Assembly (NCBI RefSeq): GCF_030684035.1
Contig: NZ_JAUXPI010000020.1
Location: forward strand, 1-64,000
From: Phaeovulum sp.
GTDB taxonomy: Bacteria > Pseudomonadota > Alphaproteobacteria > Rhodobacterales > Rhodobacteraceae
Direction: 5' to 3'
DNA length: 64,000 nucleotides
Part shown: piece by piece, positions 26,493 to 30,569 of the stretch
Position numbering within the stretch: position 1 is the stretch's first letter
Layout of the letters: each line of letters starts with the position of its first letter
The notes under the pieces: model-generated
The model's database searches: none
What the model was told of the DNA's origin: nothing
The model's input: only the letters and a program-made list of their open reading frames with translations
Translations under genes and position numbers: made by a program

Positions 26493-26969
26493 TCAGAGCC
26501 CGAGCGCAGCCTTGACCTGGTCGAGCGCGATTTGCAGCTGCGCCGGATTTGCCGCCGCGGCCTCCACCGCCGCTTTCAGCGCGGCCTTGTTCGCATCGGC
26601 CAGTGCCGAGGCGTCGATCAGTTGCGCGACCTTGGCGGCATCGAAGTTCGCCGCATCGAGAAGCGCTGCCGGGCTGAGCGCCGCGGCGGTGGCTGCAGCC
26701 GCAGCGGCAGCCGCGGCGGCGTCAACGGCAGCCTGCGCCGCCGCAGCGGCATCGGCTTCGGCCTTGGCAGCGGCTGCGTCAGCTTCGGCCTTGGCGGCGG
26801 CTGCGGCATCGGCTTCGGCCTTGGCGGCGGCGGCAGCTTGCGCCGCAGCCGCCTGGGCAGCTTGCGCCGCAACTTCGGCTGCCTTCTGGGCAGGCACATA
26901 GCTGAATTGGTAATAGCCCAGTCCGGCGGCTACGATCACCACAGCTCCGGCAATAATCGACTTGTTCAT
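26493..26969 (-). CDS. membrane-anchored Ala-rich repeat protein
   Basis: This 158-residue protein of unknown function is about half alanine. An N-terminal anchor ([18 protein letters not shown], residues 5-22) is followed by an Ala/Lys/Glu helical stretch (about 28-98) with the unit KAEADAAAA repeated three times, likely a long helix or coiled coil. A less repetitive C-terminal part (about 100-158) has ANFDAAKVAQLIDAS and DQVKAALGL. The ATG at 26969 has GGAG seven bases upstream; ATG 26981 is the alternative. It probably extends from the inner membrane into the periplasm. It is divergent from infC and has its own promoter and leader hairpin. Confidence 0.75.
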   Translation of the reverse strand: MNKSIIAGAVVIVAAGLGYYQFSYVPAQKAAEVAAQAAQAAAAQAAAAAKAEADAAAAAKAEADAAAAKAEADAAAAAQAAVDAAAAAAAAAATAAALSPAALLDAANFDAAKVAQLIDASALADANKAALKAAVEAAAANPAQLQIALDQVKAALGL

Positions 26970-27037: not shown

Positions 27038-27165
27038 TAGAACATTGCTGCGGCGCGGCGGCTGGGCTGGCGGCGCGCTGCCGAATGTGGTTGAAGATAC
27101 CGGCGCGCGCCGCTATTTTGCGCGCCACCAAACCTATGCCCGGCCACCACAAAAGGAACACAACC

Positions 27166-27705
27166 ATAGCCCGCAGACCCCACAATGCCCCGCCGCAGCG
27201 CGATACCGGCCCCCGCATAAACGACCGCATACGCGCCCCGGAAATCCGCCTGATTGATGCCGAGGGCGAGAATGTGGGGGTTGTTACCCCGGCCCGGGCA
27301 ATGGCGATGGCCGAAGAGGCTGGCCTCGATCTGGTCGAAATCTCGCCTACTGCCGTGCCTCCGGTCTGCAAGATCATGGATTTCGGCAAGTTCAAGTTCG
27401 AGCAGCAAAAGCGCGAGGCCGAGGCGCGGCGCAAGCAGCACATCATCGAGATCAAGGAAATCAAGTTCCGGCCCGGCACCGATACCCATGACTATGAGGT
27501 CAAGATGCGCTCGGTGATGAAGTTCCTCGACGAGGGCGACAAGGTGAAGGTGACCTTGCGCTTTCGTGGCCGCGAGATGGCGCACCAGCAGCTTGGCCTC
27601 GAATTGCTGAACCGCGTTGCCGCCGATGTGGGCGAGGCGGGCAAGGTCGAGTCGATGCCGCGGCTTGAAGGCAGGCAGATGGTGATGATGATCGGCCCGA
27701 AATAG
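27166..27705 (+). CDS. infC: translation initiation factor IF-3, probable ATA start
   Basis: This IF-3 of 179 residues, counted from the ATA at 27166, has an N-domain starting [19 protein letters not shown] and the signature [17 protein letters not shown]. The C-domain contains [18 protein letters not shown] and ends MMIGPK. The only upstream ATG (27136) would add ten residues without homologues and has no ribosome site. In contrast AAAAGGA (27151-27157) is spaced perfectly for ATA. IF-3 discriminates against non-standard starts, and infC genes often use AUU or AUA for self-limiting control, so a start at ATA is the best reading. A terminator follows at 27732. Confidence 0.9.
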
Positions 27706-27731: not shown

Positions 27732-27758
27732 AACCCTTCCGCAACCGGGAGGGTTTTT
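27732..27758 (+). terminator. infC terminator
   Basis: AACCCTTCC, loop GCAACC and GGGAGGGTT (one G-U pair) are followed by T, 27 nt after the infC stop. Confidence 0.8.
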
Positions 27759-27780
27759 CTTTGGGCAAAGCGGGGGGCTG

Positions 27781-27816
27781 AAAATAAAAGCGCTGCGGGA
27801 GGGAGGCCCGCAGCGC
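27781..27816 (-). terminator. terminator of the candidate FNR-controlled sRNA
   Basis: Read leftward: a 10-bp stem GCGCTGCGGG/CCCGCAGCGC with loop CCTCCCT, followed by TTTTATTTT. The plus-strand side lacks a comparable T run, so it mainly stops leftward transcription. The loop itself is complementary to Shine-Dalgarno sequences. Confidence 0.8.
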
Positions 27817-27906
27817 GTTTCTTGGGGCTAAGCGAGGGAGAACGCCACCACCCCTGGGCAGATTCCGCGCGGCGGGAGGGCCGCATCAGGGAGATCGGAA
27901 CCTGTT
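27782..27906 (-). ncRNA. candidate FNR-controlled small RNA with C-rich anti-SD loops
   Basis: The predicted transcript of about 125 nt runs from A27906 to the terminator T-run near 27782. It holds four CUCCC-type motifs: near 27888-27893, in the loop of a 5-bp hairpin GCGGC/GCCGC (loop CCTCCC, 27874-27879), near 27835-27840, and in the terminator loop (27800-27806). Such motifs can pair with GGGAGG ribosome sites. No good reading frame is present. The promoter has an FNR box centred at -41.5. It is placed between the infC terminator and an abrB-like remnant. The idea recalls low-oxygen sRNAs such as PcrZ and the CCUCC-loop CcsR RNAs of Rhodobacter; I cannot test homology. Confidence 0.55.
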
Positions 27907-27912
27907 GTGGCT

Positions 27913-27954
27913 TTTCTACGCGGCGGTGCGGCAAATTTCCTTGATTTGGGTCAA
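27913..27954 (-). promoter_or_regulatory. FNR/FnrL box and -10 element of the candidate sRNA
   Basis: TTGATTTGGGTCAA (27941-27954) matches the FNR/FnrL consensus TTGAT-N4-ATCAA at nine of ten fixed positions. On the minus strand a TAGAAA element (27918-27913) lies downstream with predicted start at 27906. That puts the box centre (27947.5) at exactly -41.5, the class II activator position. It could also act rightward on 28022. Confidence 0.6.
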
Positions 27955-28021
27955 CTTGGTGTCAGCAAGGGGTGCGACACAATGTCATGCTCAGGGTAGG
28001 CCGGGGCGTGATGGAGGTAGC

Positions 28022-28319
28022 ATGCGCAAGCACTTGGGCGAACGGGCGCTGACGATTTTGGCGGCGGCGACCGGGGCTTGGATTTTCGGCGCTGCTGGCG
28101 TTGATATTGGTGGTTTTCTTCGAAGTGGCGCATCTGCTGTCACCGGCTCCGGCGCTTGACGTGTTATTGTCGTTTCTGCCCGGCGGGCAGGCGGAAATGG
28201 TGGTAATCGCGATTGTCGCCGGGTCTGACGTGGCCTTTGTGGTCACCCATCATCTGACGCGGCTCATTCTGGTGATTCTTGCGGCACCGGTCATCGGCCG
28301 CTGGCTGGGGCCGAAATAG
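28022..28319 (+). pseudogene. remnant of an AbrB-family membrane protein
   Basis: Two overlapping frames hold pieces of what looks like one membrane protein. From 28022 (MRKHLGERALTILAAATGAW, with a GGAGG site upstream) a start-like segment is read. In another frame, from about 28080 to 28319, comes ALLALILVVFFEVAHLL and FLPGGQAEMVVIAIV ... DVAFVVTHH, which I recognise as the C-terminal end of AbrB/'ammonia monooxygenase-like' proteins. About 250 residues of the middle are missing and the frames do not join. I read it as an internally deleted, frameshifted relic; a short expressed peptide is possible. Confidence 0.5.
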
Positions 28320-28367: not shown

Positions 28368-30569
28368 TCAGAGACGGGCCATTTCCTGCCGGATCAGCCG
28401 GTTGTCGCCGCGCGCCAGCACCCAATGCCCAAGGCGGCGGGCGAGCGCGGGGTGGCCGCCCTCGATTGCGCGCTTGAAAAGTTCGCGCTGGTAGCGGGGA
28501 AATTCGCGGCGCGCGCGCAGGCGGCGGTAAAATTCCGCCTCGGTCAGCGACCCGTCGAGCGCGGCAAGGATGATCGGGTTGAGAATTCCCATCTGGTGCA
28601 GCGAGGAGCCGAGGCGGTGGCCCAGAAGCGGCGCGCGCAGCTTTACCGCATTTGGCGCGGTGAATCGCGCGGCGTGGCCGGCATCAAGCGGCTCGTAGGG
28701 GTCGTAGAGGATCGAGACGCGGCGGGCAGAGCGGCTTGCAACCGCAGCGTCGCCGTATTTGTCGGACCAGTCACGATCCCAGGCCACCTTGTAGCGGGTT
28801 TCCCAGGGCACCAGCGCGCGGTCGAGCGTCGATTGCGGGCTGATTGCCACCACATCCGCCCCCGGACAGGCACCGGCGAAGGCGCAGGCCGCGTAGCCGC
28901 CCATCGAGGCACCGTAAAACACCACCCGCTCGAACTGCGCAAAGAACCCGGTCGCCGCGAGGCGGTCGAATTCAGATGCCACCCAGGGGTCGCGATACCA
29001 GGTCCAGCCGCCTGCCATGACCCCGAGCATCGACCAACCCTGCTTTTCGATGAAATGAAAGCCCCAGGGTCGGCGTTCCTCGCGCTTGTTCATGGCAATG
29101 TCGAGGTTGTCGAAGGTTACCACCAGGGTGCGGCCGCGCGGGATGTAGAGGAAGGAGTGGCTGCCGTTGTCGCGGTAGAACCCCTCTGGCCCGGCGAGGC
29201 TGCGGGCAATCTCGGCCCAGGCGGGGTCGGTTTCGGTTGCGGCGGGGGGCAATGGGGTAAAGCGGGCGCGGGTGATTTCGACCCCGCCATCATCGCGGCT
29301 GGAAAGCGCCTCAAGCGTGCCGCGTTCCTTCAGGAACGGGTAGCTGCCGGAACCTTTGCGAATGTCGAGAAGCATCCGGCTATCGGCGTGGATGCATGCT
29401 TCAAGAACGGGGGCCAGGTGCTTGATCTTGTTGACATCGCCAAAGCCCGAGAGGTTGGCGACCAGATCGGTCGGGCGGAGCGATGCGGCGTCACGCACCA
29501 CCCGCACGCGGGCAGGCTCGACACCGTTCTCGGCCAGAAACGCGCGGTAGGGCGCGACCCAGTCGGAGGCTTTCTCGGGCCATTCGCCCTTGTGCGTGAG
29601 GTCGATCAGCGCAATGTCGCAATCCCATTTGGCATGCGCGGCCAGCGCCAGGCTTTGCGCCGTGCCACCGACATCGGCGAAAGAGGCAACCTCGGGAAGG
29701 TCGATCGCGTCGATCAGCCCCGCATCGAACAGCCGCCTGCCGCGCCCCTTGATCGGTGCCGTCTCGGGCCGGATGTCGTGCTTTGCGACAAGCATGGCAA
29801 GGTAGCTGCCCGGTGGAGGCAGGCCGCCATGGCGCAGCCCCAGTTCGCGTTTGTTCGAGGCCCAGATATGCAGCGCGGTGGTGCGGGGGGTGATCAGCTT
29901 TGCCGCGACTTTTTCGGCTTTGAGGAACTTCGTGCGGTCGGGAAAGGTGATCGGATAAAACGCATCGAGCGGCTGCACCTTTGCCTTCAGCCGGTGCTTG
30001 GCCACGAAATGGCTGATCATCATCGGACCCCAGACACCCCAGGGCTGCTGGCTGACATGCACCGGTCTGCCTGCCGCCTTTGCCGCCTGATATTCGGCGC
30101 GCAGCGCAGGTTTGACAAATTCGGGAATCGCGGAGCGGTCCGACATGAAATCGAGAATATCGGCCAGAATCGCGCTGTCGGCGGGCAGGCCCAGCACGGC
30201 GTTGTTCACCCGTGTCTCGCCCGGCAGCTCGAAGCCCATCACATAGTCGCCTTCGCAGTCGATCGGGCGGTGGCAATAAACGTCGGTATCAACCCAGATC
30301 AGGCCCGGGTTCTGCGCGATCATGTGGATGCGGAAGAGATCGGCGAACAGCGCGAAGCTGTCTTTTTTCTCGTATTTGATGAAATCGTCGGTATCGAGCA
30401 CCTCGCGCCCGTCGCGGCGGATGACCCCGGCGGGCACATTGGGAATGTCTTCGTAGGAATAGAGGGTGATCTTTTGCCCGGCATCAACGAAGGATTTGAG
30501 GCAAAGCTGCTCCATCCAGCTAAGCGCGCCACCGATCCACAGCGTTCCAACCTCGCGCACCCGCCCCAT
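28368..30569 (-). CDS. glycosyltransferase fused to a hydrolase-like domain
   Basis: This 733-residue cytoplasmic protein has no signal peptide. Residues about 1-240 form a capsule-type glycosyltransferase (Gly_transf_sug-like) with the DxD motif WVDTDVYCH (Asp94, Asp96). Residues about 290-420 are unassigned but contain a nucleotide-binding-like FADVGGTAQSLALAA. Residues about 470-690 resemble an alpha/beta hydrolase, with the nucleophile elbow YGASMGGYAA (Ser555) and later LGHRLGSSLHQMGI. The last domain is clearly related to the protein at 34272-35231. It is divergent from the large GT2 gene at 30706. A role in transferring and modifying a surface sugar is inferred; substrates are unknown. 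Confidence 0.75.
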   Translation of the reverse strand: MGRVREVGTLWIGGALSWMEQLCLKSFVDAGQKITLYSYEDIPNVPAGVIRRDGREVLDTDDFIKYEKKDSFALFADLFRIHMIAQNPGLIWVDTDVYCHRPIDCEGDYVMGFELPGETRVNNAVLGLPADSAILADILDFMSDRSAIPEFVKPALRAEYQAAKAAGRPVHVSQQPWGVWGPMMISHFVAKHRLKAKVQPLDAFYPITFPDRTKFLKAEKVAAKLITPRTTALHIWASNKRELGLRHGGLPPPGSYLAMLVAKHDIRPETAPIKGRGRRLFDAGLIDAIDLPEVASFADVGGTAQSLALAAHAKWDCDIALIDLTHKGEWPEKASDWVAPYRAFLAENGVEPARVRVVRDAASLRPTDLVANLSGFGDVNKIKHLAPVLEACIHADSRMLLDIRKGSGSYPFLKERGTLEALSSRDDGGVEITRARFTPLPPAATETDPAWAEIARSLAGPEGFYRDNGSHSFLYIPRGRTLVVTFDNLDIAMNKREERRPWGFHFIEKQGWSMLGVMAGGWTWYRDPWVASEFDRLAATGFFAQFERVVFYGASMGGYAACAFAGACPGADVVAISPQSTLDRALVPWETRYKVAWDRDWSDKYGDAAVASRSARRVSILYDPYEPLDAGHAARFTAPNAVKLRAPLLGHRLGSSLHQMGILNPIILAALDGSLTEAEFYRRLRARREFPRYQRELFKRAIEGGHPALARRLGHWVLARGDNRLIRQEMARL

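Follow-up and report, generated by a model that had tools for sequence, protein, structure and literature searches.

The minus strand at positions 27781-27906 of the window (the whole stretch of 64,000 nucleotides that was analysed) was concluded to carry a stand-alone gene for a trans-acting small RNA (sRNA) that is probably activated by FnrL. Its CUCCC loops would cover Shine-Dalgarno sites, with rpoH as the best target; we put the probability of this reading at roughly 0.78. We infer transcription, oxygen control, pairing in the cell, the direction of regulation and Hfq dependence from the features described below. An oxygen-responsive, trans-acting role would fit the presence of an FnrL-like protein and a box, the fixed loops and the recurrent ribosome site of rpoH.

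Anatomy of the small RNA gene

An earlier note on this DNA had proposed a minus-strand FNR box, a -10 element, an RNA of about 125 nt and a terminator. The promoter elements, hairpins and terminator were found at the positions first given, and the case proved stronger than had been claimed. Read directly on the minus strand, the order was FNR box, -10 element, RNA and terminator (Table 1), and a covariance-model match of the sRNA was located at 27905-27781 on that strand. The box, TTGACCCAAATCAA, agreed with nine of the ten positions of TTGAT-N4-ATCAA (minus strand, 27954-27941), as the note had counted. Re-reading of the sequence also placed A27906, the start expected from promoter geometry, exactly 41.5 bp from the box centre, and reproduced the 10-bp terminator stem, its loop CCUCCCU and the tract TTTTATTTT (27789-27781), which lies directly 3' of the stem on the minus strand.

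The predicted fold of 27906-27782 had an energy of -59.7 kcal/mol (z = -4.6), and equal stability was reached by none of 200 shuffled sequences. Four CUCCC motifs were present, as had been claimed, but the placing of only two of them in hairpin loops was not upheld; in the predicted fold each of the four lies in a loop (AUC-UCCCU-GAU in loop 1, CCUCCC in loop 2, UUCUCCCU in loop 3 and CCUCCCU in loop 4). A coding function was rejected, the overlapping frames, inspected by eye, having no start and frame conserved across the homologs.

Table 1. Features of the sRNA locus and its neighbours (positions in the window)
Feature	Position	Strand	Remarks
infC (translation initiation factor IF-3)	27085..27705	plus	Pfam IF3_N, IF3_C; convergent, on the 3' side of the sRNA
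sRNA gene, about 125 nt	27781..27906	minus	Start expected from promoter geometry; end at the U-tract
Terminator hairpin, 10 bp	27790..27816	minus	Stem 27816-27807/27799-27790; loop CCUCCCU at 27806-27800
Hairpin 3	27824..27854	minus	Loop UUCUCCCU at 27842-27835
Helix 1	27859..27904	minus	27904-27896 with 27867-27859; encloses loop 1 and hairpin 2
Hairpin 2, GCGGC-CCUCCC-GCCGC	27869..27884	minus	From the fold
Loop 1 region, UCUCCCU	27888..27894	minus	Predicted rpoH seed; AUC-UCCCU-GAU in the fold
-10 element, TAGAAA	27913..27918	minus	TA 22 nt after the box
FNR/FnrL box, TTGACCCAAATCAA	27941..27954	minus	Centre 41.5 bp from the expected start
Promoter element, TGACATTGTGTCGCA	27973..27987	minus	Invariant core TGTCGCA (27979-27973); candidate RegA/PrrA/RegR-type site
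733-aa protein, upstream neighbour	28368..30569	minus	No Pfam match

Occurrence in relatives

BLAST with the region gave matches in 14 of 394 family genomes, the own genome included, three of the matches being short fragments that were set aside; within the own genus all four genomes, again including the own, matched. The covariance model was made from seven homologs from outside the own genus. At E 0.01 it detected the sRNA in at least 29 of the 394 family genomes, 11 of which reached 48 bits or more; this is a lower bound because eight candidates were scored per genome. In the genus of R. aestuarii, for which 150 candidates were scored in each genome, 15 of 18 genomes were positive at E 0.1, with best matches that were all at least 97 bits; R. 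capsulatus SB 1003 was among them, its match lying at 1,721,348-1,721,470 on the plus strand of contig C1 (the chromosome).

A pattern scan of named genomes yielded 41 contigs. Strong model matches (E at most 1e-8) accounted for 23 of these, and such matches were found in Thioclava, Sinirhodobacter, Frigidibacter, Phaeovulum, Defluviimonas, Sedimentimonas, Rhodobacter aestuarii and others. Four contigs were weak model matches (L074, L091, L093 and L101), two were alike by eye (L073 and L098), and the other 12 had no model match and mostly look like chance.

Two of these 12, from other alphaproteobacteria (L078 and L104), nevertheless by eye showed an FNR box, a TA and hairpins with CUCCCU, and possibly represent a wider or convergent class. 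Nine relatives (L035, L037, L043, L049, L050, L073, L091, L093 and L101) were diverged; most had a box of the FNR type, C-rich loops and, close to the terminator, CUCCCUC, and another gene appears to recur beside some of them. At L036/L052 (G352, C30:6693-7123) two weak model matches adjoin behind one FNR box, perhaps as a diverged tandem pair.

An FNR-type promoter precedes the RNA

The 2.96-Mb genome contained 19 sites of the form TTGAYNNNNRTCAA versus five of the reversed pattern, so that one box by itself would be weak evidence. The covariance model had been built without promoter sequence, and TTGAYNNNNRTCAA was nevertheless located exactly 22 nt before a TA in all 11 model matches of at least 48 bits. 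The same spacing was seen in 26 of 26 homologs, 23 of which had been chosen with the box; R. capsulatus and some relatives have one nucleotide more, 23 nt, between box and TA. Among the 19 weaker matches (below 48 bits) a box preceded a TA by 22 nt in eight (L035, L038, L042, L045, L046, L049, L050 and L052), at a variable distance from the model. Two others (L037 and L043) had a box but no TA at the expected place, and in the other nine the centre contained no box belonging to the locus. Between the box and the -10 element most positions were poorly conserved.

A combined pattern of box, 22 nt, TA, 85-115 nt and CTCCCTC, which had been designed on members of the searched set, was present in 17 of 394 family genomes, and its reversed control in 0 of 394. 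Sixteen of the 17 were also covariance-model matches; the remaining one (G144) looks like chance. The conservation of this box-TA-CTCCCTC arrangement speaks against a chance occurrence of the box. What was found is a conserved FNR-type site in class II position at a dedicated promoter.

An FnrL-like protein is encoded in the genome; its name rests on a reading of the cysteine-rich N-terminus and on a general Pfam domain match. The box could instead serve a regulator of the DNR, NnrR or CrpK type, so that the signal would be nitric oxide or some other cue instead of oxygen: four proteins in the genome passed the HTH_Crp_2 cut-off, and CrpK of R. sphaeroides is reported to share binding determinants with FnrL (PMC4263372). 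Against this, the half-sites TTGAY/RTCAA agree with the consensus reported for FnrL of R. capsulatus (PMC4634722), and a letter-identical box lies just before the likely start of the genome's own fnrL-like gene, inside its longest reading frame. Such a regulator is therefore considered improbable, and FnrL is the preferred activator. The main text of PMC4634722, searched for an FnrL ChIP signal at the R. capsulatus locus, had no match for rcc0161-rcc0164, infC or small RNA.

A second element, TGTCGCA, was present at most 32 nt upstream of the box in all 35 strong homologs and in none of the 16 diverged copies. The distance from its start to the box was 25 nt in 24 of 26 homologs and 24 nt in the other two. 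The window copy agreed with the RegR motif GNGRCRTTNNGNCGC at 10 of 11 defined positions. When the homologs were scored with the motifs reported in PMC5506826, the mean was 8.8/11 for RegR (6.9 when shuffled), 9.3/12 for PrrA (8.0 when shuffled) and 10.7/12 for RegA of R. capsulatus (9.8 when shuffled). The resemblance to a RegA/PrrA/RegR-type site is thus moderate, and a regulator of this type is a possible candidate. A RegA-like response regulator, named from its translation and a general Pfam domain match, is encoded in the genome.

The structure and its C-rich loops are conserved

Conservation of the hairpins and the box in relatives had been set beforehand as a test that could refute the proposal, and both were retained. 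In an alignment of 26 sequences the four helices were kept and 96.1% of cells paired. Double-sided changes occurred in 20 of 34 pairs versus 11.0 in shuffles, and in a seven-sequence set in 14 of 34 pairs versus 5.0; both alignments are biased towards structure, since the larger was fitted to the model and the smaller was hand-made from folds. The covariation score of the 26 sequences was 0.314, compared with 0.130 when shuffled, and slid partners reached at most 0.080. Helix 1 had double-sided changes in eight of its nine pairs, and 100% of cells were paired in the terminator hairpin in this set. Helix 1 was missed when RNAalifold was run on a plain MAFFT alignment, owing to gap placement; the model that was used came from a hand segmentation.

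The C-rich loops were nearly fixed while the stems varied. With letter-identity counted over 9 nt, loop 1 (UCUCCCUGA) was kept in 23, loop 3 (UCUCCCUCG) in 24 and the terminator loop (CUCCCUCCC) in 25 of the 26 homologs. Hairpin 2 is optional, its loop being replaced and CUCCC absent in several relatives. The constant C-rich loops therefore number three, because the counts of four or five CTCCC per RNA take the terminator loop twice. A conserved structured RNA with C-rich unpaired loops, as expected of an sRNA with anti-Shine-Dalgarno loops, was thus found.

Neighbouring genes

By tblastn, infC was found on the 3' side and the opposite strand in 21 of the 26 homolog loci, and the 733-aa gene on the 5' side and the same strand in 14. 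It could be argued that there is no action in trans, and that the transcript shields infC from read-through or the hairpin acts as a second infC terminator; the sRNA is convergent to infC, and in the window its terminator lies near the end of that gene. However, a terminator-like hairpin belonging to infC itself, T-run included, lies at about 27735-27760; the T-run of the second hairpin is on the minus strand. Furthermore, in L108, L080, L085, L084, L090, L071, L102 and L088 infC is 765-2064 nt away with a gene between, and the loops are kept. A role confined to infC is consequently judged highly improbable, and the trans-acting sRNA is retained as the preferred reading.

On the other side, the nearest recognised upstream gene was the same-strand 733-aa gene in 10 of the 26 loci and a divergent glycosyltransferase or AbrB gene in nine, the AbrB remnant of the window included; none of the query genes was recognised upstream in the remaining seven. 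In the first 10 loci the box has no such divergent gene to serve, the nearest recognised gene being on the same strand. The box hence need not serve a divergent gene, and in some genomes (the nine with one adjoining) it could. Parts of the neighbourhood were also kept around the diverged copies L042, L045 and L046.

Counting paralogs, the C-terminal 200 aa of the 733-aa protein were matched in 45 of 61 family genomes. The idea that the sRNA travels everywhere with this gene was dropped: eight further genomes carrying a close relative of it (51-75% identity) were used, and the seven loci with 1.5 kb of downstream sequence showed no such unit; L126 ends about 0.3 kb after the gene.

Two further observations were made in the window. 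Positions 28022-28319 (plus strand) hold an abrB remnant, with an AbrB C-terminus by Pfam and the middle apparently missing; longer abrB frames occupy the same place in L096, L105 and L012. Behind infC, positions 26493-26969 (minus strand) encode a small protein made largely of alanine-rich repeats, and proteins with a similar start are found near infC in L006 and L092.

rpoH as candidate target

The earlier note had suggested target prediction from the loop bases. This was carried out and gave rpoH (RpoHI type) as the best candidate. The 9-nt complement of loop 1 was sought 1-11 nt before an ATG in seven genomes, and 37 matches were obtained (3 to 7 per genome), of which three were the sRNA gene's own complement and three were double counts. 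Among the 30 of the 37 matches that were opened, rpoH was the only cross-genus gene, with TCAGGGAGA lying 1-11 nt before its ATG in five of the seven genomes. In the own genome loop 1 (UCUCCCUGAU) is predicted to be able to form 10 continuous pairs with AUCAGGGAGA at rpoH.

Of the 29 genomes in which the sRNA was detected, 21 had the shorter motif AGGGAGA at most 25 nt upstream of rpoH, compared with 0 of the 15 in which it was not detected (p = 2e-6); for TCAGGGAGA the counts were 11 of 29 and 0 of 15 (p = 0.008). Both p values, as determined by the Fisher test, ignore shared ancestry. A genome was counted as lacking the sRNA on the basis of a covariance search in which eight candidates were scored per genome, or 150 in the genus of R. 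aestuarii. AGGGAGA was missing at rpoH in eight of the 29 sRNA genomes (the Frigidibacter genomes G207 and G400, R. aestuarii G398, and G116, G026, G411, G412 and G415). Among the Rhodobacter-genus genomes in which no sRNA was detected, G404 had TCAGGAAGA, G410 had TCACGAGGA and G408 had GGGAGAA near rpoH.

Upstream of other genes AGGGAGA was rare, being found at one of the 47 window genes, at none of the 161 genes from the 26 flank loci and at two of the 56 genes from 20 other loci. The duplex of loop 1 with rpoH had a predicted energy of -22.4 kcal/mol, compared with a window-gene background (50 genes selected) with a mean of -11.3, a standard deviation of 3.5 and a lowest value of -21.6; the rpoH of G020, a genome in which no sRNA was found, gave -21.1 kcal/mol. 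Duplex energy separates less well than the AGGGAGA motif, and AGGGAGA is a good ribosome site by itself. On the recurrence of this complementarity, rpoH (RpoHI type) is the best-supported target, and its repression is predicted.

There is a substantial chance, still short of even, that the rpoH match merely reflects lineage-specific usage of a ribosome site and that the sRNA really acts on other mRNAs, for instance that of an aldolase with TCAGGGAGA in this genus. An HpaI-type aldolase (named by reading) matched in three of four genus genomes (L163, L177 and L178), an acyl-CoA dehydrogenase matched in L156 and two further genus genomes had letter-identical matches, and leader sequences are common to closely related genomes. 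The cross-genus recurrence of rpoH and the rarity of AGGGAGA elsewhere count against this explanation, as do eight sRNA-negative relatives in which the RpoH N-termini are 91-94% identical and AGGGAGA is absent.

The sRNA could also be real and FnrL-controlled but serve chiefly as a sponge, with C-rich loops that titrate an RNA-binding protein or G-rich RNAs instead of repressing individual mRNAs; this is unlikely, if somewhat less so than a different FNR-family regulator at the box. Each molecule has several near-identical loops, and these are more conserved (23 to 25 of 26) than the predicted rpoH site (21 of 29). Against such a role, loop 1 retains further positions (UCUCCCUGA) that match rpoH beyond the needs of a bare CUCCC, and the rpoH motif goes with detection of the sRNA. 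Pairing with ribosome sites, with rpoH foremost, thus remains the preferred function.

Proposed mechanism and significance

In the proposed mechanism, falling oxygen would bring FnrL to the box at -41.5, where RNA polymerase would be recruited in class II geometry. A second regulator at TGTCGCA would probably help, a RegA/PrrA type being the first candidate. The resulting RNA of about 125 nt would fold into hairpins presenting CUCCC loops, whose pairing with GGGAG-type Shine-Dalgarno sequences would keep ribosomes from entering several mRNAs. With rpoH blocked, the heat-shock and oxidative-stress sigma factor would be damped in the absence of oxygen.

A more specific and tentative proposal, which we hold to be possible rather than probable, is that this FnrL-activated (possibly also RegA-activated) family is the anaerobic brake on RpoHI in the Rhodobacter group and that the rpoH ribosome site coevolved with loop 1. 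If this were true, the sRNA and AGGGAGA would be gained and lost together, and oxygen sensing would be connected directly to the heat-shock and singlet-oxygen response.

Enterobacteria are known to have base-pairing RNAs that FNR controls directly, and the Rhodobacter group is a classic model of oxygen-controlled photosynthesis. The characterised sRNAs of this group that are compared here are reported to respond to stress or photosynthesis regulators; in the present family a conserved promoter of the oxygen type and a fixed structure come together with a specific candidate target. Its presence in R. capsulatus makes it directly testable. Transcriptomes for RegA and FnrL (PMC5643017) and FnrL ChIP-seq (PMC4634722) have been published for that species, so that, with the sRNA in strain SB 1003, existing reads can be re-examined at one coordinate. 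The sRNA may explain some of the indirect FnrL effects which such studies left unassigned, and the FnrL peaks reported for R. sphaeroides include unassigned ones (PMC4263372). The sRNA was unnamed in the titles and abstract starts of the literature searched, a body of text that lies mostly outside the subscription journals. Since many sRNAs detected in R. capsulatus were reported in 2024 to await characterization (PMC11089165), the transcript may already stand in a supplementary list.

Comparison with known small RNAs

Neither the window nor any of 19 homolog loci had a match to an Rfam 15 family at gathering score. Sub-threshold matches to ncS01, ar14 and ar7 were obtained and membership was rejected in each case; ar14 (RF02344) scored 20.0 bits against a gathering score of 58.8 and ar7 (RF02342) 19.7 bits against 60, and neither had a match in the 19 homolog loci. 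As read from their alignments, ar14 and ar7 resemble the present sRNA in that their hairpins, the terminator among them, have C-rich loops of the CCUCC type.

RoxS/RsaE of Bacillus and Staphylococcus is a redox-linked sRNA whose C-rich motifs pair with Shine-Dalgarno sites; it belongs to a different lineage and has a different regulator, and the present sRNA has no Rfam match. The CcsR1-4 (cuckoo) RNAs of Rhodobacter have loops with CCUCC-type motifs and occur in the same bacterial family. The CcsR RNAs are reported to be processed from the ccaF1 (DUF1127) transcript, which has an RpoHI/RpoHII promoter (PMC10253847), whereas the sRNA described here has its own FNR-type promoter and lies mostly beside infC. 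The neighbours recognised here were infC, the 733-aa protein, a glycosyltransferase and AbrB, together with LDT-like and YeeE-like proteins by eye, Pfam having been applied to some.

FnrS of E. coli is an FNR-controlled sRNA that represses several targets without oxygen (cited in PMC4263372). FNR-type control would be common to both, but the present RNA has C-rich loops, is alphaproteobacterial and has no Rfam match. PcrZ of R. sphaeroides is described as low-oxygen-induced and dependent on PrrA and FnrL, with a PrrA site and an FnrL effect that is possibly indirect (PMC8139620); compared by description only, both RNAs may be under dual redox control. Two further RNAs of R. sphaeroides are reported to act on sigma factor mRNAs, UdsC on rpoHII (PMC9779115) and StsR on rpoE (PMC8307010). 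UdsC is derived from a 3'-UTR and StsR is controlled by RpoHI/RpoHII, whereas the sRNA here is predicted to act on rpoH of the RpoHI type. PcrZ and CcsR, which the earlier note had offered as precedents, are best seen as analogies. Judged by its promoter and loops, this family, which is absent from Rfam 15, would work like the FNR-controlled and C-rich-loop sRNAs of other bacteria.
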